Source of the DNA: Lentzea tibetensis
Lineage (GTDB): Bacteria > Actinomycetota > Actinomycetes > Mycobacteriales > Pseudonocardiaceae
Assembly: GCF_007845675.1 (NCBI RefSeq)
Contig: NZ_VOBR01000016.1
Coordinates: forward strand, 1-64,000
Direction: 5' to 3'
DNA: 64,000 nt
Both the position numbers and the translations under genes were made by a program. Under the pieces are notes generated by a model. That model saw only the letters and a list, made by a program, of their open reading frames with translations, ran no database searches and was not told the DNA's origin. Numbering within the stretch: the stretch's first letter is position 1; every line of letters starts with the position of its first letter. This document shows, in pieces, positions 28,886-50,325 of the stretch.

Positions 28886-30226
28886 CTGCTCCATCCGGTG
28901 CGTCACGACGACCGCGGTTCCCCGGCAGTTGGCGAGGATTCGTTCGAGCACGGCGTCCGCTTGCTTCGGATCGAGTCCTTCGGTGGGTTCGTCGAGCAGC
29001 ATCACTTCCGGGTCGGCGAGCACGGTGCGCGCGAGGATCAGGCGTTGGCGCTGACCGCCGGAGATCTGCTCGCCGCGTTCGCCGACCCTGGTGTCCCAGT
29101 CGAGGTCGAGCTCGACGATCTCGGCGGCGCGGTCCAGTTCCTCCTGTGTCGCGTCGGGTTTGGCGAGCAGTACGTTCGCGCGGACGGTCGTGTTGAAGAC
29201 GTGCGCGTCTGCCAGGGCGCCGCGGCACGGCTCCAGCTGCCTGGCGATCGCGTTGAGCATCGTCGTCTTGCCCGCGCCGGTGGGTCCGACTATCGCGATC
29301 CTGCCCGCGAGCGGCACCGCTGTTGCTGAGTTGATCTTGCCTGCAAGATGCACTCGCGGCCCGGAATTGTCGGTGCCGGCTGAGATGATTGGAGTGGGGA
29401 GCTCGTCTCTCCCCCACCCCACCGCGGGGTCCCCGAGGGGGGACGCCTGCGCGAGCGTTGTCAGCGGGAGTGTCACCTCGAAGGCCGCGATCGCGCCCAG
29501 CACCAGCCACGCGGGGTCGCCCTGGGTCAGCATCAGGAGTGCGGTGCCGAACTGGACGAGTATCGCCAGCGCGGTCAGGTCGGCGGTGCGTTCCTTGCTC
29601 GCCAAGGTCTTCGCGATGCGGCCGGCCTTGGCGAGCTCGTCGTCGAGCAGGTCGAACGCGACCAGTTCTTCGCGGCCGTGCACGAGGAACACCGCGTGGT
29701 CGGCCAGCCGCGCGCGCAGTGGTGCGCATGTGCTGAGTCGCCTCCTCGCCAGTGCGGCCGAGACGAGGGGGAGTGCGACACCGGTGAGCAGCAGGCCGAT
29801 GGTGAGCGGCCAGGAGGTCGCCACGGCGATCGCCACCAGGCTCACCAGGCCAGCCACGGAGGCCGGGATCAGGCAGCGCAGCAGCACGTCCAGCTTCTTG
29901 TCCACATCGGACACGAGTTGGGTGAGCGCGTCGCCGGACGGGATGTTCTTGCGGCGCAGCAACGAGTCGTACACGCGGCCGCGCAGCTCGACGGCGTGCC
30001 GGAGCACGGCGCTGTGGCCGGTGAGGCGCTCGGCGTAGCGCAGGCCGCCGCGCGCCATGGCCAGCGCGCGCACCGCGACGATCGCCACGGTCAGCGCCGC
30101 CATGGGCGGCTGCTCGGCGGCGCGCATGATCAGCCACGTCGCGGTGGCGGTGAGCGCGACACCGGAGAGCTCGGCGAGCGCGCCGACGACGACGGCGAGC
30201 CCGATTCTCGTGGCGCCGACCCTCAT
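28772..30226 (-). CDS. cydC: Heterodimeric ABC exporter subunit CydC with a repeat inserted in the linker
   Basis: About 484 residues. The membrane domain (about residues 1-270) lies before an ATPase with Walker A GPTGAGKTT, signature ISGGQRQR and Walker B VMLLDEPTEGLD. CydDC exports cysteine and glutathione and is needed to assemble cytochrome bd. Between the two domains, PTPIISAGTDNSGP is encoded by an interspersed repeat (29361-29456) found elsewhere in the window; the linker seems to tolerate it and the frame stays open. ATG 30226 overlaps the cydD stop by four bases. The last 114 bases are antisense to gpgS, which is unusual; the C-terminus after THRMEQLRLFDHV may be unconstrained. Confidence 0.85.
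   Translation of the reverse strand: MRVGATRIGLAVVVGALAELSGVALTATATWLIMRAAEQPPMAALTVAIVAVRALAMARGGLRYAERLTGHSAVLRHAVELRGRVYDSLLRRKNIPSGDALTQLVSDVDKKLDVLLRCLIPASVAGLVSLVAIAVATSWPLTIGLLLTGVALPLVSAALARRRLSTCAPLRARLADHAVFLVHGREELVAFDLLDDELAKAGRIAKTLASKERTADLTALAILVQFGTALLMLTQGDPAWLVLGAIAAFEVTLPLTTLAQASPLGDPAVGWGRDELPTPIISAGTDNSGPRVHLAGKINSATAVPLAGRIAIVGPTGAGKTTMLNAIARQLEPCRGALADAHVFNTTVRANVLLAKPDATQEELDRAAEIVELDLDWDTRVGERGEQISGGQRQRLILARTVLADPEVMLLDEPTEGLDPKQADAVLERILANCRGTAVVVTHRMEQLRLFDHVHHRGPVGDEDVRRVGQPLVTDLDELGQRAG
29361..29456 (+). repeat. Interspersed repeat copy A, inside cydC
   Basis: Begins CCGGAATTGTCGGTG and ends in GGACGCCTGCGCGAGC, sharing both ends with copy B. About 25 extra bases sit in the middle compared with the other copies. 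The complementary strand, which is the cydC coding strand, reads PTPIISAGTDNSGP. Confidence 0.75.
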
Positions 30227-31584
30227 GCCGCCGCCTCGATCCGCACCACGCGGTCCACCTCGTCGAGCAGCGCGGGCCGGTGCGCGACCAGCACGGTCGT
30301 CCGGCCGCGGAGGAAACCCCGGCAGTCCCGCAACACCTTCGCCTCCGTCTCCGGATCCAGCCTGGCCGTGGGTTCGTCGAGCAGGAACAGGCCCGCGTCC
30401 TCCCTGGCCAGGGCACGGTTGAGGGCCACCTGCTGCCGTTCGCCCGACGAGAGGTCCTGGGGGACCACAGTCGGCCGTTGCGGCATCCACGCCACCCGGC
30501 GCAACCACTCCGCCTGGTCCACGTCGCGGAGGTCGACGCCGCCGACGAGCACGCGTCCGGAATCCGGACGGACGAACCCGAGCAGCAGCCCGAGCACCGT
30601 GCTCTTCCCGGCGCCGCTCGGCCCGACGAGCGCGACCCGTTCGCCCGGTGCGATGCGCAAGGTGAAGTCCCGCAACGACCGCACGGTCACCGACTCGAAC
30701 ACGATCTCCGCGCCGAGCAGGTCCGGTGCCGGGCAACCGGTGTCCGACGGCAGGTCGGGCACCTGGTCCAGCACGGCCTTGCCCTCCGCCGAAGCGTGGA
30801 ACTGGGCGCCTGCCGCGCGCAGCGGCAGGTAGGCCTCGGGTGCGAGCAACAGCACCAGCAGCGCGGTGTGCAGGGCGACGCCACCGTCCAGCAGGCGCAG
30901 CCCCACCGGCACGGCCACCATCGCCACGGACAGCGTTGCGACCAGCTCCAGCACCAGCGCGGAGAGGAACGCCACCCGCAGCGTGCTCATGGTCGCGGAC
31001 ACGTGCTGGTCGGCCAGTTGCCGCACGGTCACCGACTGCGCCTCGGCCCGCCCGAACGCGCGCAGCGTGCCGATTCCCTTGACCACGTCGAGGAAATGGC
31101 CGCCCAGTGCGGACAAGGCGTCCAACTGCGTCTTGGTCCGGTCCCGCGTGTGCGCACCCACCAGGGCGGCGAACACCGGCACCAGCGGCAGCGTCACCGC
31201 GATCGTCAGCGCCGCCGTCACGTCGGCGAAGGCCAGCCGCACGATCACCGCGACCGGCACCAGCGCGGCCAGCACCATCTGCGGCAGGTAGCCGGCGACG
31301 TACGGCTCGACCGCGTCGACGCCGCGAGTCACCAGCGTCGCCACCTCGCCCGCCCGCGAACCTGGCGAGCGGAGGAACCGCATGCGCAGCCGGACTGTCG
31401 TGGCCGCGGCCGCGCGCTGACCCAGGTACCGGTTCAGCCAGATCACCCCGGCCCGCGCCGCGACCACGAGTGCGAGCAGCGCGACTCCGCCGTTCCCGGT
31501 GAGCACCCGCGCGAGCAGTTCCGCCTGTGCGAGAACGAGTAGCGGGATCGGGATCAGCGCGACGAGATGGCGACGATCGACCAC
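30223..31584 (-). CDS. cydD: Heterodimeric ABC exporter subunit CydD (short form)
   Basis: About 453 residues, shorter than the usual 550. The membrane domain shows YVAGYLPQMVLAALVPVAVI and GHFLDVVKGIGTLRAFGRA; the ATPase has Walker A GPSGAGKST, a degenerate signature LSSGERQQ and Walker B LFLLDEPTARLD. With CydC it forms the thiol exporter for cytochrome bd maturation. GTG 31584 (VVDRRHLVALIPIP) is the most likely start, overlapping cydB by 31 bases; it removes the N-terminal cytoplasmic extension seen in other CydD proteins. No ATG lies nearby in frame. Confidence 0.85.
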   Translation of the reverse strand: MVDRRHLVALIPIPLLVLAQAELLARVLTGNGGVALLALVVAARAGVIWLNRYLGQRAAAATTVRLRMRFLRSPGSRAGEVATLVTRGVDAVEPYVAGYLPQMVLAALVPVAVIVRLAFADVTAALTIAVTLPLVPVFAALVGAHTRDRTKTQLDALSALGGHFLDVVKGIGTLRAFGRAEAQSVTVRQLADQHVSATMSTLRVAFLSALVLELVATLSVAMVAVPVGLRLLDGGVALHTALLVLLLAPEAYLPLRAAGAQFHASAEGKAVLDQVPDLPSDTGCPAPDLLGAEIVFESVTVRSLRDFTLRIAPGERVALVGPSGAGKSTVLGLLLGFVRPDSGRVLVGGVDLRDVDQAEWLRRVAWMPQRPTVVPQDLSSGERQQVALNRALAREDAGLFLLDEPTARLDPETEAKVLRDCRGFLRGRTTVLVAHRPALLDEVDRVVRIEAAA

Positions 31585-32180
31585 TGCAGGATCACCACCA
31601 GCGGCAGGATCGGGATCGCGACCCAGCTGAGCATCGCGAGCGTGTCCGGGTGCGCCATCAGCCCGGCGACCGAGTGCGAGCTGAACGCGATCGGCACGGG
31701 CAGCGCGCAGGCGAGCGCGGTGAGCAGGAAAGCAGGCCTGCGACGTGTCTGGAAAGCCCAGCCGTGCAAGGCGAACAGCATCGGCATGACCACGACCCAG
31801 ATGAACCACGGCGTGCCGGACAGGTGCGCGACGAACAGCCCCCAGCCGCACGACACCATCAACGCGCCCGCGAACACCAGGCCGTGCCACAGTCGCAGTT
31901 GGACGGACGCCATGAACAGCACCAGCCCGCCGAGCACCAGCGTGAACACCTGGTGCGCACCGGAGAGCAGTTCCCCTTCCAGGCGCGGGAAAGCGGCGAA
32001 CAGCACGCCGACCGACGCGACGAGCCACACCTCGTTGCCCAGGAAGAACGGCGTCATCCTGCGCATCGCCTCAGCGCGCCGGACGAACGGCAGCAGCAGG
32101 CCCGTCCCGTAGTCGAACCCCGCCAGTGCGAAGTACCCCATGACGAGCACCGTCAGCAGGGCGAGCCAGAGCGTTTCCAC
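31554..32180 (-). CDS. cydB: Cytochrome bd oxidase subunit II, compact form
   Basis: About 208 residues, against 330-380 for typical CydB. The N-terminus VETLWLALLTVLVMGYFALAGFDYGTGLLLPF is the conserved first helix and loop of CydB, followed by MTPFFLGNEVWLVAS. About six hydrophobic helices are visible; the C-terminus (PLVVILQWSIVAISSR) resembles the last helix of normal CydB, so the length difference seems to come from internal loss rather than truncation. It is the partner subunit of CydA in the plasma membrane. GTG 32180 follows a GGGGGATT stretch, 10 bases after the cydA stop. Confidence 0.82.
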   Translation of the reverse strand: METLWLALLTVLVMGYFALAGFDYGTGLLLPFVRRAEAMRRMTPFFLGNEVWLVASVGVLFAAFPRLEGELLSGAHQVFTLVLGGLVLFMASVQLRLWHGLVFAGALMVSCGWGLFVAHLSGTPWFIWVVVMPMLFALHGWAFQTRRRPAFLLTALACALPVPIAFSSHSVAGLMAHPDTLAMLSWVAIPILPLVVILQWSIVAISSR

Positions 32181-32190
32181 GACAATCCCC

Positions 32191-33351
32191 CTAGAGCGAC
32201 ACGACGAGCGGCGCGATCGGCCGCGGCGTCGTCTCCGGTCCACTTCGGACAGCACGCGCGATGAGCGCCCAGTCGGTGACGGCGAGCAGCAGGAACATCG
32301 ACGAGAACACGACCAGCGAAGTGGTCATGCTCGCCGCGCTCACGTGCGACACGGCGTCCTCGGTGCGCAGCAACCCGTACACGAGCCACGGCTGCCGCCC
32401 GATCTCGCGGAACAACCAGCCGAAGATCGCCGCGCAGAACGGCAGCGGGATGCCGATCACCATGAGGTACAACGGAAAGCGCATTCGGATGACCCAGTCG
32501 CGGAACAGCAGCGGCACGGCCGCCCAGCTGGCCAGCAGCAGCGACATGCCGATGAGGATCATGAACCCGAGCGGCACGCCGAGCCACGGCGCCGCGTCCT
32601 CCTTGTGCGGCTGGTAGGTCCCGATGATCGGGAACTGCCCGAACCCCGCGCCGATCAGGAACGGCGTCGCCACCGCCGTCACGACGACACCGAGCCGCAG
32701 CGAACGGCGGAAGAACTCGACTTCCCCGGTGCACTTGATGAAGTGGTAGGCGCTCACGCCCGTGACGAACACGCCGCCGGTCGTCAGCGCCGCGAAGACG
32801 ACGTGCGTCAACGCGGTGCCGAACGTCGGATTGGTCAGCAGCGCACCGAAGTCGACCAGCCGCAGCACGCCGTCGCGCTCCTCGTAGCCGACCGGGTGCT
32901 GCAGGAAACCGTTGGCCGCCATGATCCAGAACGCCGACGCGTACGCGGTCAGCGCGGTCAGCCAGATCAGTGCGAGGTGCACCCAGCGGTTCAACCGTCC
33001 CCAGCCGAAGATCCACAGACCGAGGAACGTGGACTCCAGGAAGAACGCGACCAGCGTCTCCAGTGCCAGCGGCGCGCCGAACACGTCGCCCGCGTAGCTC
33101 GCGAGCCCGCTCCAGTTCAGACCGAACTGGAACTCCATCACGACGCCGGTGACGATGCCGAGCGCGTAGTTGATGACGTAGATGCGGCCCCAGAACTTCG
33201 TCATCCGTTCGTGCACGGGCGCTCTGGTCAGCGTGAACCTGGTCTGCATCACCACGATCAGCGTCACCAGGCCCAGCGTGAGCAGCACGAACAGGAAGTG
33301 GAACGACGTCGTCACGGCGAACTGGAGCCGCGCCAGGTCCAAGGTGTCCAT
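32191..33351 (-). CDS. cydA: Cytochrome bd ubiquinol/menaquinol oxidase subunit I
   Basis: About 386 residues, shorter than the common 450-520, mostly through a short quinol-binding loop. Hallmarks are His18 in TTSFHFLFV, WGRIYVINYALGIVTGVVMEFQFG, the heme-binding His in VSAYHFIKC, GAGFGQFPIIGTYQPHKED and GRQPWLVYGLLRTEDAVS. It reduces oxygen to water with electrons from menaquinol at low oxygen. ATG 33351 is preceded by TAACGT and an 8-base gap, so it is probably leaderless. The promoter block has a near-identical mirror copy in front of the divergent padR gene, which suggests PadR control. Confidence 0.92.
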   Translation of the reverse strand: MDTLDLARLQFAVTTSFHFLFVLLTLGLVTLIVVMQTRFTLTRAPVHERMTKFWGRIYVINYALGIVTGVVMEFQFGLNWSGLASYAGDVFGAPLALETLVAFFLESTFLGLWIFGWGRLNRWVHLALIWLTALTAYASAFWIMAANGFLQHPVGYEERDGVLRLVDFGALLTNPTFGTALTHVVFAALTTGGVFVTGVSAYHFIKCTGEVEFFRRSLRLGVVVTAVATPFLIGAGFGQFPIIGTYQPHKEDAAPWLGVPLGFMILIGMSLLLASWAAVPLLFRDWVIRMRFPLYLMVIGIPLPFCAAIFGWLFREIGRQPWLVYGLLRTEDAVSHVSAASMTTSLVVFSSMFLLLAVTDWALIARAVRSGPETTPRPIAPLVVSL

Positions 33352-33460
33352 AGGTAGCGACGTTATATGTAGGCTGGCTACGTCAAGCTGTTTTCGGGGC
33401 GATATCAGGGATATCTCAGGGCTCCCCGGAGCCCGTTCATCAGTAAGGTCGCTACCTATG
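33349..33460. promoter_or_regulatory. Divergent cydA/padR control region with mirrored 17-bp blocks
   Basis: In front of cydA (minus strand, 33365-33349) the sequence is TAACGTCGCTACCTATG and in front of padR (33444-33460) it is TAAGGTCGCTACCTATG, identical but for one base and each ending in the ATG. TAA(C/G)GT would be the -10 box and the shared GTCGCTACC a regulator site between it and the leaderless start. TTGACG upstream of cydA may be its -35 box. Between them lie a doubled GATATC segment and a GC-rich palindrome at 33419-33434. Confidence 0.65.
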
Positions 33461-33793
33461 AAGCCGGACGCGCTGCGCGGACACCTCGACGCGTTGCTGC
33501 TCGCCACGCTCGACGGCAGGCAGCTGCACGGTTACGCGATCATCGAGGCGCTGCAGCAGGGCAGCGGGGGAGTGCTGGACCTGCCGACCGGCACGGTCTA
33601 CCCGGCACTGCGGCGGCTCGAACGGGCGGGGCACGTCTCCAGCGACTGGAGCACGGTCGGCGGGCGCCAGCGCCGCACGTACCGGCTCACGTCGTCGGGC
33701 CAGCGGGCGCTGTCGGCCGAGCGGTCGGCGTGGCGCGAGTTCACCAGCGTGATCGACGGCGTACTCGGGGGTGGCAAGTGGAAGCAGGTGTGA
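33458..33793 (+). CDS. PadR-family transcriptional regulator
   Basis: 111 residues, a single winged-helix domain: LLLATLDGRQLHGYAIIEALQ, then the wing region DLPTGTVYPALRRLERAGHVSSDW and GRQRRTYRLTSSGQRAL, all standard for PadR. PadR proteins are usually repressors responding to small molecules. The gene is divergent from cydABDC and both starts carry the same 17-bp block, so it probably represses itself and the oxidase operon. It overlaps the following HAAS-domain gene by four bases. Confidence 0.9.
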   Translation: MKPDALRGHLDALLLATLDGRQLHGYAIIEALQQGSGGVLDLPTGTVYPALRRLERAGHVSSDWSTVGGRQRRTYRLTSSGQRALSAERSAWREFTSVIDGVLGGGKWKQV

Positions 33794-34458
33794 TCGACAG
33801 ATACGTGGCCGATCTCGACGGCAGGCTGCGCGGCCCGCGAGCGGCGAAGGACGACCTGCTGACCGAGACCCGCGACAGCCTGGTCGACGCCGTCGAGGCC
33901 CACCTGGAGAGCGGCCTGTCGTCGTCCGCGGCCGAACGCCGTGCGATCGAGGAGTTCGGCCCGGTCGGCACGATCGCGCGGGCCTACCAGGCGGAGCTCG
34001 CCGTGTCGGCCGGCACGCGGACGCTGGTGACGATCGCGGTCGTCCTGCCGCTGATGCACGTGATGTGGGAGCTCAACCGCTGGTTCTTCATCGGCGCGTG
34101 GGACCCGCACATGGACGCGCCGCCCGCCTGGTACCTGTGGCTCGCGAAGGTCAACGACATGACCGGCATCGTCGCGGCGGGCGTCGCCTTCGCCGCCCTG
34201 CTCGTCGGCCGGTACCTGTGCCGGGGCAGGACGCACAGCGCCACGATGGGCAAGCTGGCCAGCGGCCTCGCCCTGTGCTCGGTGGCGGCGGTGATGACCG
34301 GCCAGGTCGCGATCATGGCGGCCACCTGGCACGTCGACGTCCGCATGCTGCTGCTGTCCCCGCCGGTGACGATCGCCAGCGCGATCTCCCTGGTGATCCT
34401 CATCTGGCTCGGTGTCCTCGCTCGCCGCTGCCTGAGCTGTGCCACGATCGTCAGGTGA
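33790..34458 (+). CDS. Membrane protein with an N-terminal HAAS (permease-prefix) domain
   Basis: About 222 residues. Residues 1-70 (VIDRYVADLDGRLRGPRAAKDDLLTETRDSLVDAVEAH and EFGPVGTIARAYQAELA) are the helical HAAS domain that typically follows PadR regulators. About four membrane helices follow (TIAVVLPLMHVMWEL, IVAAGVAFAALLVG, ASGLALCSVAAVMTGQ, IASAISLVILIWLG). GTG 33790 overlaps the PadR stop (GTGA); GTG 33778 after GGGGGTGG is an alternative. PadR-HAAS pairs usually act together in membrane-signal control; the signal here is not evident. Confidence 0.8.
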   Translation: MIDRYVADLDGRLRGPRAAKDDLLTETRDSLVDAVEAHLESGLSSSAAERRAIEEFGPVGTIARAYQAELAVSAGTRTLVTIAVVLPLMHVMWELNRWFFIGAWDPHMDAPPAWYLWLAKVNDMTGIVAAGVAFAALLVGRYLCRGRTHSATMGKLASGLALCSVAAVMTGQVAIMAATWHVDVRMLLLSPPVTIASAISLVILIWLGVLARRCLSCATIVR

Positions 34459-34766
34459 CCACCGCCCTGATCTACTTGATCATCATGGTGCTCGTGGCGG
34501 CCGTGGTGTTCCTGCTCGCCTCGCTGGTGTTCGGCCGAGGCGAGGAACTGGCTCCGCTGCCGCCCGGCGCCTCGCCGACGCGCCTACCGGCCGAGGACAT
34601 CACGTCCGACGACGTGCGCGTGCTCAAGTTCCAGCAGGTCCTGCGCGGCTACAAGATGAGCGAGGTCGACTGGGTCCTGCTGCGGCTCGCCGACGAGCTG
34701 GACACCCTGCGCGCCCGCGTCGCCGAGCTCGAGGACTCCCGCGAGGCCTCCCGTGAGCACAGCTGA
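34455..34766 (+). CDS. Small membrane-anchored DivIVA-domain protein (Rv1209-like)
   Basis: About 103 residues. One N-terminal membrane helix (ALIYLIIMVLVAAVVFLLASLVF) is followed by a short linker and a DivIVA-like motif, ITSDDVRVLKFQQVLRGYKMSEVDWVLLRLADELDTLRARVAEL, ending in a coiled coil. Such proteins sense membrane curvature or scaffold polar growth factors. Its place before tag matches Rv1209-Rv1210 in mycobacteria. GTG 34455 overlaps the preceding stop by four bases, and the next gene by 14. Confidence 0.85.
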   Translation: MTTALIYLIIMVLVAAVVFLLASLVFGRGEELAPLPPGASPTRLPAEDITSDDVRVLKFQQVLRGYKMSEVDWVLLRLADELDTLRARVAELEDSREASREHS

Positions 34767-35696: not shown

Positions 35697-35844
35697 GGTT
35701 TCTGGTGTGGGGTGGCAAGGCTGCGCCTGATCAGCGAGGACCTCCCCACCCTGGCCCTTCGGATGCTTGGGATCATTCGGCCGCCGGTTTGGGCTCGGGG
35801 GCCGCGCCCGTTGGGCAGTGCGGGGGTTGGCAGTGCGGCGGGCG

Positions 35845-35968: not shown

Positions 35969-36007
35969 CTCCCTAGTAGGTCTTCGTCAGGTTGGCAGGT
36001 CAGGGGT

Positions 36008-36049: not shown

Positions 36050-36155
36050 AGCTTTGACCTGCTGCGATTGATGATGGCGCCCGCTGTGCTCGTGTCGGTG
36101 GGGGTGTGGCGGGCCTTGGAATCTGCGGGGTTTGAGGGGTGGCGTTGCTGCGGGC

Positions 36156-36226
36156 CGGGGATTGTCGGTGCTGGCTGGGAGCATGATTTCGGGGAGTTCT
36201 CACGTGCGGGGGACGCCTGCGCGAGG
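36156..36226 (+). repeat. Interspersed repeat copy B (intergenic)
   Basis: Reads CCGGGGATTGTCGGTGCTGG at the start and GGGGGACGCCTGCGCGAG at the end. The complementary strand would read LPASTDNPR in the frame used by the in-gene copies. It lies between convergent genes. Confidence 0.7.
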
Positions 36227-36374
36227 CTGCGACGACACCGGCACCTCGACACGCCCACGTCGTCGGCGAATCCGTGCGTGTTGCTCGAAGTCGGAGCGCC
36301 CCGAACAGCGGAGAACCCCGGCGGCAATTGCCAACCGGGGCTCTCCGCACACCGCGATCAGGCCAAGAGGCCGA

Positions 36375-37160: not shown

Positions 37161-37174
37161 GGGGTGGACCTCCA

Positions 37175-38393: not shown

Positions 38394-38413
38394 GGCCTCC
38401 CAGCTGAGCACGA

Positions 38414-39974: not shown

Positions 39975-40909
39975 TCGCGGAAGTTCCGGACGGCCGGCGG
40001 CAGCGGGTGGTCCCTGCGCCACGCGAGGCCGAACCGCCTGCTCGTCCGGGGCGTCAGCGGTAGCTCGACGAGCCCCTGCGGCGGTGTCAGCTCGGCGTGC
40101 GTCAGCAGCGCCACGCCGAGCCCCGCCGCGACGAGGCCGCGCACCGTCTCGATCTCCTGGCTCTCGAACGCGATCTTCGGCGTGAACCCCGCTCGCGCGC
40201 ACAGCTCGTCGTGGATCTGGCGCAGGCCGTAGCCGTGCTCCAGCACGATGAAGTCGTCCCCGGCGAGCTCCTCGAGCCGCACCTGGGTGCTTCCCGCCAG
40301 CCGGTGCGTCGACGGGACGATCACGATCAGCTCCTGCTCGAACACCACCCGGCTCTCGAACTCATCGCCCTCCGGCGGTGGCGCGACGAGCGCCAGGTCG
40401 ACCTCGCCTCGGGCGAGCAGCTCCGTGACGGCCTGGCGGGAGTTCTGGACGAGCCCGAAGCGGACGTGCGGGTGCTCCTGGCGGAAGCCGCGCACCAGCT
40501 CGGGGACCACCGAGCGGCCCAGCATGTGCAGGAACCCGAGCACGACGCGTCCCCGTTCCGGGTCCACCTCCTCCTCGACCTGCCGCAGGCCGGCTTCGAG
40601 CGCGTTCATCGACCGCTCGGCGGCTTCGGCGAGCAGCTTGCCCGCTCGGGTGAGGCGGATCCGGCGGCCGTCCCTGACGAGGATCGGCGTGCCCAGCTCC
40701 TCGCTGAGATCGGTCAGCCAGCGGCTCGCGGTGGGCTGCGGAACTCCGGCTCGTTCCGCGGCGCGGGTCAGGTGTTCGTCCTGGGCGAGCGCGCCGAGTA
40801 CGGCCAATTTGGGTGCCAAAGTCGCGGAATTGTCGGTGTCAGCTGGGAGAATGGAATCAGGGGACCCCCTGGGCGGGGACTCTTGCGTGAGCTTGGGCGA
40901 TTCACTCAT
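39956..40909 (-). CDS. LysR-family regulator with a repeat-encoded N-terminus
   Basis: About 317 residues. The helix-turn-helix is LAVLGALAQDEHLTRAAERAGVPQPTASRWLTDLSEELG at residues 33-71, later than the usual position 2-40. The first 30 residues (ending SPDSILPADTDNSAT) come from interspersed repeat copy C. The effector domain follows (VVLGFLHMLGRSVVPELVRGF; GEVDLALVAPPPEGDEFESRVV). It is divergent from an MFS transporter gene 51 bases away, the standard arrangement for a regulator and its target. ATG 40909 is used; a TTG (LAPKLAV) just after the repeat could have been the original start. Confidence 0.88.
   Translation of the reverse strand: MSESPKLTQESPPRGSPDSILPADTDNSATLAPKLAVLGALAQDEHLTRAAERAGVPQPTASRWLTDLSEELGTPILVRDGRRIRLTRAGKLLAEAAERSMNALEAGLRQVEEEVDPERGRVVLGFLHMLGRSVVPELVRGFRQEHPHVRFGLVQNSRQAVTELLARGEVDLALVAPPPEGDEFESRVVFEQELIVIVPSTHRLAGSTQVRLEELAGDDFIVLEHGYGLRQIHDELCARAGFTPKIAFESQEIETVRGLVAAGLGVALLTHAELTPPQGLVELPLTPRTSRRFGLAWRRDHPLPPAVRNFRDYALRA
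40824..40892 (+). repeat. Interspersed repeat copy C, in the 5' end of the LysR gene
   Basis: Begins GCGGAATTGTCGGTG, then GGGAGAATGGAATCAGGGGA and a GC-rich hairpin end CCCCTGGGCGGGGAC. On the LysR coding strand it gives SPDSILPADTDNSA. Confidence 0.75.
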
Positions 40910-40960: not shown

Positions 40961-42331
40961 GTGTCCACCAGGTTGACCGTGTCCGTTGCCGCGGCCGGGC
41001 TCGCGAGCTTCGCGTTGCTGTACGCGCCGCAGCCCGTGCTGCCCCAGATCGCTGCCGAGTACGGGCTGGAACCGGGTGGCGCTTCGCTTGCCGTGAGCGC
41101 TGCGACCGGGGCGCTGGCGGTGGTGGTCGTGCCGGTCGCTGCGTTGTCGGAACGGGTCGGGCGGCGGCCGGTGATCCTCGTGTCCGTGCTCGCCGCGGCG
41201 GTGCTCGCTCTGCTGCTGCCGTTCGCGCCGGACTACTCGACGTTCCTGGTGCTGCGGGTCCTGCAAGGTGCCGCGGTCGCCGGCGTGCCCGCTGCCGCGA
41301 TGGCGTTCCTCGCGGACGAGATGCGGGACAACCTCGGCGGCGCCGTCGGCGCGATGATCGCGGGCAACAGCGCGGGCGGGATGCTCGGGCGGCTGCTCGC
41401 CGGGACCACCGCCGACTGGCTCGGATGGCGCGGGGCGCTCGGGGCGGCCGCCGTGTTCGGCCTGTTGTGCGCGTGCGTCGTGGCCTTCCTGCTGCCACGG
41501 CCTGAATTGGACCGCAGTGGATCGGGCCGCTTGGGTTCGGACCGCTCGGTGTCGCCTCGCGCGGCTCGCCTGGGAATGCTTCGCAGGGGTCCCCGCCCTG
41601 GGGGTCCCCCAGATCCAATTATCCCAGGCAGCACCGACAATTCCGGGGGCTCAGGACTGAAAGCGGCGTTATCCGACCCAGCTCTCCTGTGCCTCTACGG
41701 CGTGGCGGTGCTGGCGGTCGGCTCGTTCATCTCGCTCTACAACGTGATCGGCTTCCGCCTCGCGGCACTCCCGAGCTGGCTGTCGTCGCTCGTCTTCGTC
41801 GTCTACGCGGTGGGTGGCATCGCGTCCGCGACGGCGGGCAGGCTCGCCGACCGCCACGGGCGGGGCCGGGTGCTCCTCGTGTGCCTCGGCATCACGGCGG
41901 TGGGCGCACTGGTGACCATCCCGCTGGTCCCGCTCGGCCTGGCGATCTTCACCGGCGGCTTCTTCGCCGCCCACGCCACCGCCAGCGGCTGGGTCGGCAG
42001 CCGCGCCCCGCGGCACGCACGCGGCCAGGCGTCCGGGCTCTACCTGTGCGGGTTCTACGTCGGCAGCAGCGTCCTCGGCACCACCGGCAGCGCCGCGTTC
42101 GGCGCGTGGGGCTGGACCGGGCTGACCGCGCTCGTCGTGAGCTGGCTCGCGATGGCCGCCGTGCTCGTTCAGAAGTCGAGGGGGATCGACACCGACGACT
42201 CCAGCGCCTTGAGGTCCACCCTGCCCAGCCGGGGCAGGTCCAGCGAACCGGACTTCAGGCCCACCGACACGGAGCGGGTGTCGGCGGGGACCTCGACGAC
42301 CACCGCCGACGGGAACACGCCGCCGTCGTAG
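40961..42331 (+). CDS. MFS transporter with a repeat inserted in its central loop
   Basis: 456 residues, 12 predicted helices, related to YnfM/CynX-type exporters: LLYAPQPVLPQIAAEYGL at the start, then ALSERVGRRPVILVS, the motif-A loop between helices 2 and 3. The central cytoplasmic loop between helices 6 and 7 is enlarged to about 60 residues and contains PDPIIPGSTDNSGG, encoded by repeat copy D; its position in a tolerant loop should leave the protein working. The gene is divergent from the LysR regulator. The hydrophilic tail after VLVQKSRG overlaps the end of the convergent lipoprotein gene by 163 bases. GTG 40961 follows TAGCGT by 6 bases, suggesting a leaderless transcript. Confidence 0.88.
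   Translation: MSTRLTVSVAAAGLASFALLYAPQPVLPQIAAEYGLEPGGASLAVSAATGALAVVVVPVAALSERVGRRPVILVSVLAAAVLALLLPFAPDYSTFLVLRVLQGAAVAGVPAAAMAFLADEMRDNLGGAVGAMIAGNSAGGMLGRLLAGTTADWLGWRGALGAAAVFGLLCACVVAFLLPRPELDRSGSGRLGSDRSVSPRAARLGMLRRGPRPGGPPDPIIPGSTDNSGGSGLKAALSDPALLCLYGVAVLAVGSFISLYNVIGFRLAALPSWLSSLVFVVYAVGGIASATAGRLADRHGRGRVLLVCLGITAVGALVTIPLVPLGLAIFTGGFFAAHATASGWVGSRAPRHARGQASGLYLCGFYVGSSVLGTTGSAAFGAWGWTGLTALVVSWLAMAAVLVQKSRGIDTDDSSALRSTLPSRGRSSEPDFRPTDTERVSAGTSTTTADGNTPPS
41582..41647 (-). repeat. Interspersed repeat copy D, inside the MFS gene
   Basis: Reverse orientation relative to copies A, B, C and E. Its minus strand reads CCGGAATTGTCGGTGCTGCC, then GGGATAATTGGATCTGGGGG and a hairpin end. 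The plus strand, the MFS coding strand, gives PDPIIPGSTDNSG. Confidence 0.75.
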
Positions 42332-43566: not shown

Positions 43567-43575
43567 AGGTCGCCC

Positions 43576-43600
43576 CCAGTAGGTAGATCGTCGCTACTGG
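43576..43600. promoter_or_regulatory. Inverted repeat upstream of the lipoprotein gene
   Basis: CCAGTAG (43576-43582) and CTACTGG (43594-43600) are perfect arms around 11 bases, 10 bases before the GTG. The segment includes TAGGTAG and GTCGCTAC, both also part of the cydA/padR block, so a shared regulator is possible. Confidence 0.45.
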
Positions 43601-43646
43601 TTAAAGGCGAGTATCGCTCGATCGGGTTGCCCCAATCGGGGGTGAC

Positions 43647-44804
43647 TCAGATCACAGTGCGGTACACGTCCACGGTCTGCTTGGCCATCGTCTCCCAGGA
43701 AAAGTCCTGGACAGCGCGGGTGCGACCAGCTTCGCCGAACGTCCTGGCGCGCGCCGGGTCCGCGAGCAGTGCGTTGATCGCCACGGCGAGATCGTGTCGA
43801 TATGTCGACAAATCGTGCTCGTCGTAGTGCACGAGCAGGCCGGTCTCGTCCTGCACGACGACCTCGGGGATGCCGCCGACGTCCGACGCGACGACGGCCG
43901 TGCCGCACGCCATCGCCTCCAGGTTCACGATGCCGAGCGGCTCGTAGACCGATGGGCACGCGAACACGGTCGCGTGGCTCAGGATCTGCCGGACCTCGGG
44001 CAGCGGCAGCATCTGCTGGATCCAGAAGACACCCGGCCGCACCGCGGACAGCTCCCCGACCGCGAGGCGGGTCTCCTCGGCGATCTCCGGGGTGTCCGGC
44101 GCGCCCGCGCACAGCACGATCTGCGCGTCGCGGGAGATCTCGTGCGCCGCGGCGACCAGGTGCCCGACGCCCTTCTGCCTGGTGATCCGGCCGACGAACG
44201 CGACGATCGGCCGCGCCGGGTCGATGCCCCGGCTGGTCAGGGCGTCGGTCTCGGTGACGGGCCGGTAGGTCTCCGTGTCGATGCCGTTGCGCACGACGTG
44301 CACGCGCGCCGGATCGAGCGCGGGGTAGCAGTCGAGCACGTCCGCGCGCATGCCGTCGCTCACCGCGATGATCGCGTCCGCCGCCTCGTACGCGGTGCGC
44401 TCGGCCCACGACGAGATCCGGTAGCCGCCGCCGAGCTGCTCGGCCTTCCACGGCCTGCGCGGCTCCAGCGAGTGCGCGGTGATCACGTGCGGCACGCCGT
44501 GCAGGAGTTTGGCCAGGTGCCCGGCCATGTTCGCGTACCAGGTGTGCGAGTGCACGAGCTCAGCATCTGAGACGGCTGAGGCCATGCTGAGGTCGACCGA
44601 CAGGGTGCTGAGCGCGAAGTTGGCCTCCGCGAGGCCCGGCGCGGGGTCGTGGGTGGTCGCGTCATCGCGCGGACCGCCGAAGCAGTGCACGTCCACCTCG
44701 ACCAGCTCCCGCAGGTGCGGGACGAGGAATCCGACGTGCACCCCGGCACCGCCGTAGACCTCAGGCGGGTATTCCCGTGTCAACAGTCCTACGCGCACAC
44801 CCAT
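43647..44804 (-). CDS. glgM: Alpha-maltose-1-phosphate synthase (GT4 glycogen synthase type)
   Basis: 385 residues. GT4 fold: [20 protein letters not shown] at the N-terminus, [38 protein letters not shown] and the donor-site E-x7-E in [18 protein letters not shown]. It corresponds to Rv1212c, which makes maltose-1-phosphate from ADP-glucose and glucose-1-phosphate for the GlgE glycogen pathway. ATG 44804 lies 53 bases from the divergent glgC start, so substrate supply and use are adjacent. Older annotation would call it glgA. Confidence 0.92.
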
Positions 44805-44857
44805 ACGTTAGTTCAGAAGCTGGTCCGTTGGCTGCGACGCAGATAGGGTCACATGCT

Positions 44858-46072
44858 GTGAAGGGGCAGCCGCACGTTCTCGGAATTGTGCTTGCTGGCG
44901 GCGAGGGCAAGCGCCTCTGGCCACTGACGGCCGACCGGGCCAAGCCCGCCGTGCCCTTCGGTGGCAACTACCGGCTGGTCGACTTCGTGCTGTCGAACCT
45001 GGTCAACGCCGGCCTGGTGCGTCTGTGCGTGCTCACCCAGTACAAGTCGCACTCGCTCGACAAGCACATCTCGACGACCTGGCGGTTGTCCAATGTGCTC
45101 GGTCAGTACGTGACGCCCGTGCCCGCTCAGCAGCGGCTCGGGCCCCGCTGGTACACCGGCAGCGCCGACGCCATCTTCCAGTCGCTGAACCTGGTGCACG
45201 ACGAGAAGCCGGACCACATCGCGATCTTCGGTGCCGACCACGTGTACCGAATGGACCCGAGCCAGATGATCGACCAGCACGTCGAGTCCGGCGCGTCGGT
45301 CACGGTCGCGGGCATCCGGGTGCCGCGGACCGAGGCCAAGGCGTTCGGCTGCATCGACTCGGACGCCGCCGGCAAGATCACCCGGTTCCTCGAGAAGCCG
45401 TCCGAGCCGCCGCACGTGCCGGACGACCCCGAGGTCACCTTCGCGTCGATGGGCAACTACGTCTTCACGACCGAGGCCCTGCTCGACGCGCTGCGCTCCG
45501 ACGCGCTCAACCCCGACTCGGACCACGACATGGGCGGCGACATCATCCCCATGCTCGTCGACCAGGGGGAGGCGCACGTCTACGACTTCAAGGACAACGT
45601 CGTGCCGGGCGCGACCGAGCGCGACCAGGGCTACTGGCGTGACGTCGGGACCATCGACGCCTACTACGACGCGCACATGGACCTCGTGTCCGTGCACCCG
45701 ATCTTCAACCTCTACAACCAGATGTGGCCGATCCGCACCGCGACGCCACCGCTGCCGCCCGCGAAGTTCATCGCGGGAGGGTCGGCGGAGGACTCGATGG
45801 TCGGGCCGGGCTCGATCATCTCCGGCAAGATCCACGGCTCGGTGATCTCGTCGGACGTCATCGTCGAGGTCGGGTCCGTCGTGCAGGGGTCCGTGCTGCT
45901 GCCCGGTGTGCGCATCGGCAAGGGCGCGGTCGTGCGGCGCGCGATCCTCGACAAGAACGTGCTCGTGCCCGACGGCGCGCTGATCGGCGTCGACCCGGCG
46001 ACGGACCGGGAGCGCTACACCGTCAGCGCCGGCGGCGTCACCGTGCTCGGCAAGGGCGTCCGCGCCTACTGA
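44858..46072 (+). CDS. glgC: Glucose-1-phosphate adenylyltransferase (ADP-glucose pyrophosphorylase)
   Basis: About 404 residues. The nucleotidyltransferase motif is [29 protein letters not shown], then [14 protein letters not shown] and [19 protein letters not shown]; the C-terminal beta helix ([20 protein letters not shown]) is usual for GlgC. It makes ADP-glucose for glycogen and related glucans. GTG 44858 is leaderless by position: TAGGGT (44844-44849) ends 8 bases upstream. It is divergent from glgM. Confidence 0.95.
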
Positions 46073-46097
46073 ACCCGCGTTGCTCGCTCAACCCGCG

Positions 46098-46166
46098 CTT
46101 CAAGGGGTCCCCCGGCAAGGGGATCCCCTTGTTGTAAGTCTTTCACGCAGGACCGACAAGAACGGG
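46098..46166 (-). repeat. Interspersed repeat copy F (diverged), with terminator-like hairpin
   Basis: On the minus strand: CTTGTCGGTCCTGCGTGAAA, then the hairpin AAGGGGATCCCC-TTGCC-GGGGGACCCCTT. It shares TTGTCGGT and the hairpin end with the other copies but has lost most of the middle. It lies between the convergent glgC and methyltransferase genes, 25 bases after the glgC stop, where a terminator is expected. Confidence 0.55.
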
Positions 46167-46223
46167 TGCTCAGCGCTCGTTGAGGCTGATCAGGTGCGGT
46201 GAACGGCCCGTTGACCGCGCGAG

Positions 46224-46856
46224 TCAGGGCCGCCGCGCGGCGACCAGCAGCCCGTCGCCCAGCGGCAGGATCACCGGCACCAGCCGGTCGTCCTCCCGCA
46301 CGGACCGGGCGATGTCGCGCATCGCGTTGGTCGACTCGTCCCGCTGCGCCTGGTCGACGACGCGCCCGTGCCACAGCACGTTGTCGAACGCGATCACGCC
46401 GCCCGGCCGCAGCATCCGCACCCCGTGCTCGAGGTACTTCGGGTACTCCGGCTTGTGCCCGTCGACGAACACGAGGTCGTAGCCGCCGTCGGTCAGCCGC
46501 GGCAGCACGTCCAGCGCGCTGCCCATGATCAGCCTGGTCCGCGACGGCGAGATCCGGGCCCGCGAGAACATCTCGCGCGCCACCCGCTGGTGCTCCGGCT
46601 CCACGTCGATGGACGTCAGCACGCCCGAAGCCGGCATGCCGCCGAGCAGGTAGAGGCCGCTCACACCGGCACCCGTTCCCACCTCGACCACGGCCTTGGC
46701 CTGCAACGCGGTCGCGAGGAACCGCAGCGCCGCGCCGCCACCCGCGCCGATGGGGACGCACCCCAGCTCCAGGCCGCGGGCCCGTGCGGCCTGCTGCACG
46801 TCGTCCTCCGGGAGGTACTGCTCCACGTACTCCCGAAGTGGCGAATCCGGTGTCAC
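46224..46856 (-). CDS. O-methyltransferase (Rv1220c-like, class I SAM-dependent)
   Basis: 210 residues. The SAM motif is VVEVGTGAGVSGLYLLGGMP, then LTSIDVEPEHQRVAREMF and the metal-binding LVFVDGHKPEYPKYLEHGVRMLRPGGVIAFDNVLWHG, as in catechol-type O-methyltransferases. The equivalent gene precedes sigE, divergently, in M. tuberculosis. The natural substrate is unknown. GTG 46856 is the start. Confidence 0.9.
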   Translation of the reverse strand: MTPDSPLREYVEQYLPEDDVQQAARARGLELGCVPIGAGGGAALRFLATALQAKAVVEVGTGAGVSGLYLLGGMPASGVLTSIDVEPEHQRVAREMFSRARISPSRTRLIMGSALDVLPRLTDGGYDLVFVDGHKPEYPKYLEHGVRMLRPGGVIAFDNVLWHGRVVDQAQRDESTNAMRDIARSVREDDRLVPVILPLGDGLLVAARRP

Positions 46857-46997
46857 AAGGACGGAGGTTACTGCCGACTGTGCCCAAAACGGGTGAACCC
46901 GCCGACCGGATTCTCAGCCAGCTCTCAGGCCACTCTCACGATCGTCTAAAGGGAGCACGACAAAGTGACACTCGAGGTTGGAACCAGGCTCAGATCG

Positions 46998-47023
46998 GGA
47001 ACACACGGGACCAGATCAGCGTT
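46998..47023 (+). promoter_or_regulatory. Probable ECF-type promoter of the sigE operon
   Basis: GGAAC at 46998-47002 and CGTT at 47020-47023 are separated by 17 bases, the pattern read by SigE-like ECF sigma factors. A second GGAACC lies at 46980-46985 without a matching -10. The implied leader is about 40 bases. This indicates self-activation of sigE. Confidence 0.6.
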
Positions 47024-47071
47024 GAGCCGCTCAAGGGCCGCCGAGGCCCGCTGGAGGTGCCGTAACACCTG

Positions 47072-47650
47072 ATGCGTACACAGTCGAGTTCCGCGGAGGC
47101 CGTCGCGCCCATCGAGACGGTCGACTGGACGCCGCCCTCGTGGGACGAGGTCGTGCGCGAGCACGCCGATCGGGTGTACCGGTTGGCGTACCGCCTCACC
47201 GGTAACCAGCACGACGCCGAGGACCTCACCCAGGAGACGTTCATCCGGGTGTTCCGCTCGCTCGCGTCCTACAAGCCGGGCACGTTCGAGGGCTGGCTGC
47301 ACCGCATCACCACGAACCTCTTCCTCGACATGGCGCGCCGCCGTTCGCGGCTGCGCATGGAGGGCCTGCCCGACGACACGGACCGGCTCGAGGGCGACGA
47401 CCCCACCCCGGAGGAGATCTGGGACAGCACCCACCTGGACCCGGACCTGCAGGCCGCGCTGGACGCGCTGCCCGCCGAGTTCCGCGCCGCCGTGGTGCTG
47501 TGTGACGTGGAAGGACTCTCCTACGAGGAGATCGGTGCCACGCTCGGCGTAAAACTGGGTACCGTGAGGAGCAGGATCCACCGGGGCCGCCAGGCCCTTC
47601 GCGCCGAACTCGAACGCCGGAGGCAAACTGTGCAGGAGGACTCTGCATGA
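47072..47650 (+). CDS. sigE: ECF RNA polymerase sigma factor, SigE type
   Basis: 192 residues. Region 2 is [38 protein letters not shown], region 4 is [47 protein letters not shown]. It directs transcription of envelope-stress genes. GGAGGTG lies about 13 bases before ATG 47072, a rather long spacing. The gene overlaps its anti-sigma gene by four bases and the order sigE-rseA-htrA-tatB is that of M. tuberculosis. Confidence 0.93.
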
Positions 47651-48207
47651 CCGACCTTCGTGGTTGGCGTCTGCCTGAGCAGCACCTTCTGCCGGATGCC
47701 GTGGTCGCCTTCGTCGACGGCGAGCTGTCGGCCACCGCGCACCAACGCGTCGCCACGCACATCGCGCGATGCGGCTTCTGCGCCTTCGAGACCTACGCCC
47801 AGCAGCAGGCGCGCACCCTCGTGCGCGCCGCGGAAGCGCCCGCCGCTCCCGCTGGGCTCCTCGACCGCCTGGGTGCCATCCCCCAGGAAGTCGACCTGCC
47901 CAGCGCGCCCGACGGGCTCGCGCTGGACGAGCACGGCCAGTTCGTCACGATGCAACGCACCGACCGCACCGCGTTCGGCTCAGGGCCGAGGCTCGGCGAG
48001 TCACGCCCGCTCGGCAGCCAGGGCTGGTTCAGCGGCCGCCGTGCCCGCCAGGGCGCGGGAGTCGTCGTCTCCGGCCTCATGCTCGGCGCGCTCGCGCTGA
48101 TCGCACCGGACTCCGACACGCCGGCCGAACCCGCCCGCGTCGCGGGTGACCCGCAGCCCGGCGGCATCCAGCTCGACGGCCGCGCCGCGCTGCTCGGCAA
48201 CCGCTGA
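47647..48207 (+). CDS. rseA: Zinc-containing anti-sigma factor for SigE
   Basis: 186 residues. The zinc anti-sigma motif is His38, Cys42 and Cys45 in [13 protein letters not shown], after [14 protein letters not shown] probable membrane helix is [19 protein letters not shown] near residues 136-154. It should bind and inhibit SigE in the cytoplasm and release it under oxidative or envelope stress. It is translationally coupled to sigE by ATGA. Confidence 0.88.
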
Positions 48208-48242
48208 CGCCCACTTCACCGGACTTGTAGCAGGCTGAACGA

Positions 48243-49763
48243 GTGAGTCAGCAGTCGCCCAACGGACAGACGTCCACCCCGGTGTCCGGTGTGGACGACG
48301 GCGCCCATCGGCGGCTGGGGCCCCGCCCCATCGACCGGCCCGAGACCGACCCCGTGCTGACCTCCACCTTCGGCCGCCCCGACGGCGTCGAAGGCGCGTT
48401 CGCGCGCGGCCCCGAGGTCACGCCGCCTCCCGTCCAGCTCGCGGCCCCGCCGCCCGAGGCGCTGTCGACCGCGTTCGGCCGCCCGCCCTACGGCGACGAG
48501 CTGCTCCAGCGACCCCCCGGCGACACGCCGCCGGAACCCGAGGTCGACCCGGTCTTCTGGGCGGGCAAGCCCGCGGGCGACCCGTGGCGCGACCCCGGCG
48601 CGGGCGCCGTGATCGGCCCGCCCGCCGTCACCGAGGACACCCCGGCCAAGGAGAAGAAGCCGGCGCCCGGCCCGCAGTTCTCGGTGCCCGAGCTGATCCT
48701 CGGCCGCCGCGTGAAGCCGACGTCGATGGCGATCCTGCTGGTCGTCGTGCTGCTGATCGGTGCGGCCGGTGGTCTCGTCGGCTGGCTGGTCGGCCGCGCG
48801 GGCAACCCGCTGACCGACGCCGAGGTCACCCTCGCCGAGGTCGCACCCGGCAAGGAACGCCCGGCGGGCTCCGTCTCGGACATCTCCACGCGCGTCACGC
48901 CGTCCGTCGTGTCGATCGAGTTCAAGGGCACCAACATCGCGGGCATCGGCTCGGGCGTCGTGATCGACGGCGAGGGCTACGTGCTCACCAACGACCACGT
49001 CGTCGCACCGGCCGCGCAGGACACGTCCGCGAAGCTCACCGCCGTCTTCACCGACGGCACCCGCGCGCAGGCCCGCATCGTCGGCCGCGACTCCAAGACC
49101 GACCTCGCGGTGATCAAGGTCGAGGTGAAGAACCCGACCGTCCTGCGGTTCGGCAACTCCGACGAGCTCAAGGTCGGTGACACGGTCATCGCCGTCGGCT
49201 CGCCGCTGCAGCTGTCCAACACCGTCACCCAGGGCATCGTCTCCGCGCTGCACCGACCCGTGACGGCCGCGGGCGAGAACGGCGGCCCGCAGGTCACCTA
49301 CGACGCCATCCAGACCGACGCGGCCATCAACCCCGGCAACTCCGGCGGTGCGCTGGTCGACTCGTCCGGGACGCTCGTCGGGATCAACTCGTCGATCCGC
49401 ACCGAGACCGGCGGTTCCGTCGGACTCGGGTTCGCGATCTCCGGCAACCAGGCCCGCAAGATCGCCGAGGCGCTCATCCGCGAGGGCAAGGTCCGGCACG
49501 CGGACATGAACATCAACGTGAAGTCCGTGTCCGCGGAGACGTCCGAGGGCGCTCAGGTGCAGAACGTGCCCGCTGGTGGCGCGGCGGCCGCCGCCGGCAT
49601 CCAGGAGGGTGACGTGATCACCAAGGTGGGCAACCGGATCGTGCGGAACGCCGCCGAGCTCACCGTCGCCGTCCGCGAACGCGAGATCGGCGAGACCGTG
49701 AAGGTCGTGCTGGCCCGGCAGGGGCGCGAGCTGACGGTTGACGTGACTCTCAAGTCCGACTGA
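48243..49763 (+). CDS. htrA: HtrA-like membrane-anchored serine protease with PDZ domain
   Basis: 506 residues. A proline-rich cytoplasmic segment of about 150 residues precedes one membrane helix (161-183). The trypsin-like domain has catalytic His252 (LTNDHVV), Asp287 (SKTDLAVIKV) and Ser367 (NPGNSGGAL), and a PDZ domain follows (GGAAAAAGIQEGDVITKVGNRIV). The protease domain is outside the membrane and handles damaged envelope proteins; in mycobacteria it also adjusts the SigE response. It is 35 bases after the anti-sigma gene. GTG 48243 is the start. Confidence 0.94.
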   Translation: MSQQSPNGQTSTPVSGVDDGAHRRLGPRPIDRPETDPVLTSTFGRPDGVEGAFARGPEVTPPPVQLAAPPPEALSTAFGRPPYGDELLQRPPGDTPPEPEVDPVFWAGKPAGDPWRDPGAGAVIGPPAVTEDTPAKEKKPAPGPQFSVPELILGRRVKPTSMAILLVVVLLIGAAGGLVGWLVGRAGNPLTDAEVTLAEVAPGKERPAGSVSDISTRVTPSVVSIEFKGTNIAGIGSGVVIDGEGYVLTNDHVVAPAAQDTSAKLTAVFTDGTRAQARIVGRDSKTDLAVIKVEVKNPTVLRFGNSDELKVGDTVIAVGSPLQLSNTVTQGIVSALHRPVTAAGENGGPQVTYDAIQTDAAINPGNSGGALVDSSGTLVGINSSIRTETGGSVGLGFAISGNQARKIAEALIREGKVRHADMNINVKSVSAETSEGAQVQNVPAGGAAAAAGIQEGDVITKVGNRIVRNAAELTVAVREREIGETVKVVLARQGRELTVDVTLKSD

Positions 49764-49779
49764 CAGCTAGGCTGGCATC

Positions 49780-50157
49780 GTGTTCGACAGCATCGGATGG
49801 GTCGAGATCCTCATCATCGTGGTCGCGGGTCTCTTCGTCCTGGGCCCGGAACGGCTGCCGTCCGCGGCGGCATGGCTCGGCAAGACCGTCCGAACGGTGC
49901 GTGAGTACGCGACGGGCGCGCGCGAGCAGCTCAAGCAGGAGATGGGGCCCGAGTTCGAACAGCTGCGCAAGCCCCTCGAGGACCTGCGCGAACTGCGGAA
50001 CTTCGACCCCAAGCGCGCGGTGACCAAGCACCTCTTCGACGACGACTCGTCCTCGAAGCCCAACGGCTACCCCGCCACGCCTTCGACGCCGTCCGCGCCG
50101 GAGCAGCGGCCACTCGCGCCCGGCGAGCGTCCGCCCTACGACCCGGACGCGACCTGA
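49780..50157 (+). CDS. tatB: Sec-independent translocase subunit TatB
   Basis: 125 residues. One N-terminal helix ([20 protein letters not shown]) with the conserved Glu and the FVLGPERLP hinge, followed by an amphipathic helix ([18 protein letters not shown]) and an unstructured Pro/Ser-rich tail. It is the substrate receptor subunit of the twin-arginine translocase. GTG 49780 is 16 bases after the htrA stop, at the end of the sigE operon. Confidence 0.92.
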
Positions 50158-50212
50158 TCGCAGGCACCTGCGCCCGATTGCCGCGGCGCTGATCCCAGGC
50201 GACGTGGCTGAG

Positions 50213-50239
50213 TTGTCCACAGGCCTCGAGTTGTCCACA
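50213..50239 (+). promoter_or_regulatory. Two DnaA boxes in direct repeat
   Basis: TTGTCCACA occurs at 50213-50221 and 50231-50239, both in the same orientation, 18 bases apart, each inside GAGTTGTCCACAGG. This is the consensus DnaA box of high-GC actinobacteria. There is no dnaA/dnaN gene here, so this is not the main origin as seen; a titration or regulatory site is possible. Confidence 0.55.
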
Positions 50240-50254
50240 GGCTCGGTCTCGCGG

Positions 50255-50325
50255 GCCCCGAACTGTCGGTGCTCAGTGGGAGAATCAAATCAGGGGTCCC
50301 CTGGGCGGGGACCCCTTTCAAGCGT
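50255..50325 (+). repeat. Interspersed repeat copy E, with perfect 10-bp terminator-like hairpin
   Basis: Begins CCCCGAACTGTCGGTGCTC and ends in AGGGGTCCCC-TGGGC-GGGGACCCCT followed by TTCAAG. The complementary strand would read DLILPLSTDSSG. It lies between the convergent tatB and mrp genes. Confidence 0.72.

Follow-up and report, generated by a model that had tools for sequence, protein, structure and literature searches.

What is the short sequence that recurs six times (copies A to F) in a 64,000-nucleotide stretch of the Lentzea tibetensis genome (contig NZ_VOBR01000016.1, positions 1 to 64,000; hereafter the window), and how has it come to lie both between and inside genes? A sequence-only reading had reported these copies as a mobile repeat that proteins tolerate, and re-reading of the sequence found all six in place. 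The repeat unit is ~72 bases long; copies lie mostly just 3' of genes, and some are in frame inside genes. In our view it is probably a small interspersed repeat, non-autonomous and present in Lentzea and in some related genera, whose basis is a damage-type promoter with a hairpin leader.

Copy number, amplification and empty sites

A covariance model of 77 positions was built from 28 copies that include C, D and E; A, B and F were not among these. The model recovers all six window copies, with C at 85.4, D at 79.3, E at 72.8, B at 52.2, A at 43.6 and F at 34.2 bits, the last being the weakest match (E = 2.8e-4). The sequence-only reading would have been refuted had a whole-genome search returned just these few copies. 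Instead, the L. tibetensis genome (G000) contains at least 145 copies at E <= 0.01, a lower bound, as scores were computed for only 150 of 5,572 first-look candidates. When the left half of the repeat is searched as a degenerate pattern (up to three mismatches), this genome has 89 matches and a reversed control none; the repeat is thus present far beyond chance. By sequence pattern, 75 of the copies are of type 1 (like C, D and E) and 70 of type 2 (like B). A few are longer, such as A, which exceeds the 77-position model by ~28 bases. The consensus ends are CCGGAA at the left and GCGTGAGC at the right. Several type-2 copies are located ~270-640 bases from contig ends of the same genome (L039-L044, L047, L053, L054, L056), embedded in larger repeat stretches that are non-coding, contain long perfect hairpins and short TGGTACCTGCCGGTTTCGCTGGG-like arrays, and probably break the assembly.

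The closest relative of L. tibetensis at the compared loci (G165) has 71 copies, and the other 23 genomes of the genus have 3-16 each (E <= 0.001). This excess in two genomes indicates lineage-specific amplification. Matches at family level (E <= 0.01), several of them weak, come from 36 of 150 genomes and 13 of 46 genera, L. tibetensis included. A second genus (g21) harbours 96, 28 and 13 copies in three genomes. None of the 196 other genomes of the class, those listed lying outside the family, matched the model under strict filters (E <= 1e-4), and an exact pattern search of named genomes matched four stretches, all from Lentzea. The available text of open-licence papers yielded no description of repeats of this group or of repeats with the promoter discussed below.

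Orthologues of the cydC, LysR and major facilitator superfamily (MFS) genes, in which the sequence-only reading had seen inserts, lack them in relatives other than G165. At sites A and C, both flanks were matched in all 23 other genomes of the genus besides G165, and none of the 23 loci per site gives a model match even at E <= 1; G165 has a match at both sites. Nine aligned relatives are devoid of the segment at site A, where that of G165 is shorter and also reads TDNSGP. At site C, G165 has three copies in a row. The L. tibetensis protein, with the LysR start codon that we infer, reads MSESP, 25 residues and LAPK where an aligned relative with an ATG start has MDESE-LAPK, and three further relatives begin VDEL(D/E)-LAPK. 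Five aligned relatives, G165 included, have no segment at site D. The central loop of the MFS protein is 41-42 residues longer than in five translated relatives, a gain that exceeds the copy alone, so that other sequence must have changed there too. For site E, both flanks were found in 16 of 20 relatives and the copy is absent from all 16, with no model match in any of L249-L267. The same convergent gap (window 50157-50359) contains quite different hairpins or longer sequence among species of the genus (L249-L267). The empty sites are ~75% alike to the L. tibetensis sequence and thus too diverged for a target duplication to be read. With at least 145 copies, strong amplification in its lineage and empty sites, the repeat is indeed the dispersed, protein-tolerated element that had been suspected.

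A promoter-like core and its upstream boxes

The LexA/RecA-independent (PafBC-type) DNA-damage promoter has the motif tTGTCRgtg - 8 nt - TannnT, as given in the accessible part of PMC5656591. The conserved left half of the repeat matches this motif, usually without the T at position -12. Two of the 145 copies could not be anchored on the core and were excluded from the counts. Among the 143 others, the nonamer is exactly TTGTCRGTG in 99, and a hexamer xAnnnT, usually preceded by TG, follows it after 8 nt in 140. Conservation is strongest for A(-11) (143/143), G(-14) (142/143), T(-7) (140/143) and T(-15) (135/143), and positions -13, -12, -10, -9 and -8 are variable. A(-11), G(-14) and T(-7) are each present in 30/30 loci of other genomes (L312-L341). 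In g21, the A and the T are kept in 39 of 40 copies despite drift of the nonamer, most often to TTGTCGGAC. The core is likely to be of promoter nature, and from the spacing the predicted transcription start of both types would coincide with the hairpin base.

Perfect TTGTCRGTG-N8-TAnnnT sites number 14 in the L. tibetensis genome versus one in the control. By eye, five of them are followed by a GC hairpin like that of the repeat (two on contig C19, two on C20, one on C66), and of these five only C20:139789 is among the 145 copies. The other nine include sites upstream of SbcD-like, WYL-regulator and proteasomal-ATPase genes, as well as one upstream of a proteasome-subunit gene, whose open reading frame (ORF) begins 303 bases on.

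DUF222-HNH (13E12-type) genes often carry the same promoter motif, and the repeat might be a target or leftover of such genes. At ~9 of 30 class loci, TGTCGGTG was seen by eye on the strand of the gene shortly upstream of it (L270, L274, L277, L280, L284, L289, L291, L294, L296), and there are 21 occurrences in all, compared with 5.1 in mononucleotide shuffles. However, none of the eight DUF222 loci of L. tibetensis (gene plus ~1.5 kb on each side) shows the repeat, and we rejected these genes as its driver. The motif is common to both because they share a promoter type, and a causal role of DUF222-HNH genes appears very improbable.

A second element is found upstream of many copies. The 9-mer TTGTCCACA, which we take to be the actinobacterial DnaA box, occurs in either orientation within 80 bases to the left of 27 of the 75 type-1 copies and to the right of one, and 22 of its 35 occurrences are 28-31 bases from the core. 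It occupies its fixed upstream place in 21 of 73 type-1 and 4 of 70 type-2 copies. The 12-mer GTTGTCCACAGG is present 44 times in the genome, against once in the control, with 31 of the 44 beside copies of the repeat. Seven of the 13 boxes away from copies are on one contig (C44, 18847-237879), a cluster that is perhaps near the replication origin. In g21, TTGTCCACAG, TTATCCACAG and CTATCCACAG stand at the same fixed place. Some copies have the palindrome GTGAACGGGCCGTTCAC instead of a box, near the same distance; it has 10 occurrences in 525 kb of the L. tibetensis genome and lies at most 80 bases from ten copies of the repeat. In G165, the counterpart (91% identical) of the Mrp-type gene next to copy E is followed by a copy that has two boxes and is oriented opposite to the gene, and a lone box without the repeat is present in the site-E gap of G160. 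The Mrp-type gene of G165 is inverted relative to that of L. tibetensis (L248:17977-19426).

Boxes at a fixed distance in two genera, together with copies common to several species, would also suit selection rather than movement, with regulatory sites that arose or were retained at the ends of genes, for instance to titrate PafBC or DnaA. We regard this as unlikely, since the presence of copies inside unrelated proteins, the tandem arrays and the range of 3 to 145 copies within one genus look like amplification. The features of the window copies are collected in Table 1.

Table 1. Copies of the repeat and associated features in the window
Feature	Coordinates	Strand	Basis
Copy A, long form; in cydC (gene on -), linker of transmembrane and nucleotide-binding domains, TDNSG frame	29360..29464	+	
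Promoter-like core of A: TTGTCGGTG - 8 nt - GATGAT	29367..29389	+	sequence reading
Copy B, type 2; intergenic	36155..36234	+	
Promoter-like core of B: TTGTCGGTG - 8 nt - GAGCAT	36162..36184	+	sequence reading
Copy C, type 1; near LysR gene start (gene on -), TDNSA frame	40823..40900	+	
Promoter-like core of C: TTGTCGGTG - 8 nt - GAGAAT	40830..40852	+	sequence reading
Copy D, type 1; in MFS gene (ORF 40961-42331, +), central loop, TDNSG frame	41569..41647	-	
Promoter-like core of D: TTGTCGGTG - 8 nt - GATAAT	41618..41640	-	sequence reading
Copy F, diverged; intergenic	46089..46166	-	
Promoter-like core of F: TTGTCGGTC - 8 nt - AAGACT	46137..46159	-	sequence reading
Palindrome GGTCAACGGGCCGTTCACC left of F; variant of the palindrome beside other copies	46198..46216	-	
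DnaA-box-like GTTGTCCACAGG, outer box of E	50212..50223	+	
DnaA-box-like GTTGTCCACAGG, at fixed distance from E	50230..50241	+	
Copy E, type 1; between convergent genes, 3' of Mrp/ApbC gene	50256..50332	+	
Promoter-like core of E: CTGTCGGTG - 8 nt - GAGAAT	50263..50285	+	sequence reading
Hairpin of E: AGGGGTCCCC / GGGGACCCCT, 10-bp stem	50292..50316	+	sequence reading; consensus hairpin

Placement at gene ends and inside proteins

Both neighbouring genes were called for 119 copies. Of these copies, 50 are flanked by convergent genes and four by divergent ones; the flanking genes read in the direction of the element in 42 cases and in the opposite direction in 23. Neighbours thus read with the element more often than against it (42 versus 23, p = 0.025). 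Among gaps of more than 60 bases, 4 of the 102 with a copy are divergent and 45 convergent, compared with 54 and 7, respectively, of the 112 without a copy (Fisher p = 2e-14 for divergent gaps). Similarly, none of 30 intergenic copies in g21 is in a divergent gap. At one place shared by five species (L318, L320, L321, L323, L328), compared by eye, a copy seems from its sequence to supply the last residues and the stop codon of the preceding gene.

Repetitive extragenic palindromes (REPs) are biased towards the 3' ends of genes. The Lentzea family might be an ordinary REP-like hairpin repeat, if anything a portable terminator or mRNA end, whose likeness to a promoter would be a coincidence or a harmless relic. 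The location after stop codons and in convergent gaps fits this possibility, as do the perfect hairpin of copies such as E, the conservation of the hairpin at about the level of the core, and the quite different hairpins that occupy the same gap in other species. Nevertheless, conservation of an unpaired left half is not required of a terminator, and the letters kept there are mostly those that the promoter needs, at promoter spacing; we find this explanation possible but rather doubtful. A structural RNA with compensatory changes found no support, as 0/7 and 0/17 predicted pairs change on both sides. Five copies folded singly are within one standard deviation of their shuffles, and Rfam 15 has no match at gathering score within the window.

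According to a codon-based gene finder, at least 10 of the 145 L. tibetensis copies lie inside genes, compared with 89% coding sequence in the window; the count is a lower bound because the gene finder missed in-gene copies C and D, whose placement rests on orthologues. The three in-gene readings proposed from the sequence were correct, the CydC linker, the LysR N-terminus and the MFS central loop all being in the TDNS(G/A) frame. The proposal that in-gene copies always use this frame had to be abandoned: with frames decided from family and structure matches, two of nine L. tibetensis loci use frame +1, and g21 uses frames +0, +1, -1 and -0. The seven TDNSG-frame loci comprise CydC, LysR, MFS and HrpB, the latter with ~33 extra residues relative to a solved HrpB structure, and three weaker cases, namely a LanC-like protein with two copies at its tail, an S13 carboxypeptidase ORF with the element in its N-terminal part, and a glycerate kinase. 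The two loci in frame +1 are a carboxylesterase (COesterase) with ~35 extra residues relative to a solved structure and an FtsX-type permease with three tandem copies (Pfam match only). The TDNSG frame is the most often open one in type-1 copies (70/75), which may explain its lead in this genome.

The glycerate-kinase copy (C20:139754) was rejected as an insertion, as the protein is not longer there than the solved structure; the peptide of the element thus replaces a native loop. This gene (L088:1331-2632) has the full damage-promoter motif on the strand opposite the element-encoded peptide. A methyltransferase ORF (C22:152929) and a xanthine-dehydrogenase-type ORF (C77:156670) were discarded as in-gene cases because the copy is upstream of the matched domains, and C38:19342, L376 and L379 have no family match to fix the frame. 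In g21, frame +0 is read in two non-ribosomal peptide synthetase condensation domains, -1 in a methylmalonyl-CoA mutase, +1 in two AAA_16 regulators and in copies adjoining LUD and amylase domains, and -0 in a copy after a trypsin domain. Some of these cases may be one insertion inherited by two species.

Possible origin and comparison with known systems

The sequence of the repeat suggests an old family of promoter-like units that have spread, not an ordinary palindrome. The order of its parts is, in many copies, a DnaA-box-like 9-mer, then CCGGAA, the core TTGTCRGTG - 8 nt - xAnnnT and a GC-rich hairpin near the predicted start. Such a unit may descend from a damage-inducible promoter with its 5' leader and might still bind the promoter machinery, at least weakly. 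It would have been spread by a factor acting in trans. Insertion would occur widely, with loss of the copies in promoters and of most copies in genes, and the survivors would be found after stop codons, or in tolerant protein loops when their length is a multiple of three and their frame is open. A more tentative and rather unlikely extension is that PafBC reads every copy as an active or poised start site, in many cases together with DnaA bound ~56 bases before the predicted start. The spread of the repeat would then have placed well over 100 starts responsive to damage and replication at gene ends, many of them antisense to the neighbouring gene.

Several observations weigh against a mobile unit built on a damage-type promoter. 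Three to six species of the genus share the position of some copies, so that not all copies are recent insertions. Regarding the core, T(-12) of the promoter consensus is present in 1/143 copies, with G, C or A in 142/143, so that the family as a whole does not conform to the full tTGTCRgtg-N8-TAnnnT motif, and the exact nonamer is lost in 38 of 40 g21 copies. As all copies are related, the conserved letters are not independent evidence and the spacing control is weak; moreover, the copies were found with a model that holds the core letters, and the search thus favours its own consensus. Conservation of the hairpin columns is about equal to that of the core. Intergenic type-1 copies are not aimed at downstream genes, as the gene to their right is codirectional in 28 of 66 cases. 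Neither terminal inverted repeats nor a target duplication could be established, and by eye the copy alignments show no end-to-end inverted repeat. Finally, no mover was found, with no Y1_Tnp match in the L. tibetensis genome.

This last result also bears on the REP/RAYT (REP-associated tyrosine transposase) systems, in which a Y1 transposase moves short palindromes. In the available excerpts of PMC3733652, REPs resemble the Lentzea repeat in size, copy number and occurrence inside ORFs. Yet the genome with the most copies is devoid of Y1_Tnp, as are 14 of the 25 genomes of the genus, L. tibetensis included, with 11 of 25 having a match, and the consensus has no GTAG tag. We therefore rejected such a system, which is extremely unlikely here.

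Small bacterial repeats that survive inside proteins are already known. According to the consulted portions of PMC2229807 and PMC3733652, Rickettsia palindromic elements (RPE) are short, intergenic or in frame in conserved proteins, and tolerated there, and CGTC-tagged repeats seemingly have no dedicated transposase. Like RPE, some of which are CGTC-tagged REPs, the Lentzea repeat is present both between genes and in frame inside conserved proteins whose orthologues lack it. The likeness to Rickettsia elements drawn by the sequence-only reading therefore holds for the tolerated in-frame copies, but it was incomplete, as the gene finder places only 10 of 145 copies (a lower bound) inside genes and a promoter-like core had gone unseen. 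In contrast to RPE, the Lentzea repeat is not palindromic over the whole unit, lies mostly at gene 3' ends and has a promoter-like core, often with a DnaA-like box; neither a CGTC nor a GTAG tag ends a palindrome in its consensus. It shares a hairpin, high copy number, grouped copies and some copies in ORFs with the GTAG-tagged, RAYT-associated REPs and bacterial interspersed mosaic elements (excerpts of PMC3733652), but differs in the missing tag and transposase. The Correia/NEMIS repeats of Neisseria are likewise small and mobile, carry putative promoters and form in-frame fusions (PMC2229807, in part), but have 24-bp terminal inverted repeats and target duplications, neither of which was established for Lentzea. 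The RecA-independent damage promoters (recA P1, PafBC regulon) have the same nonamer, 8-nt spacing, A(-11) and T(-7); the repeat differs from them in the replaced T(-12) and in not being placed to drive a downstream gene. The Lentzea family adds an actinobacterial example, clear from its empty sites, in which repeats have made proteins longer. With a conserved damage-promoter core and, in two genera, a DnaA-like box at a set distance, it would link the amplification of a repeat to the damage response, and would allow a test of whether repeats of this kind rewire transcription at the ends of genes.

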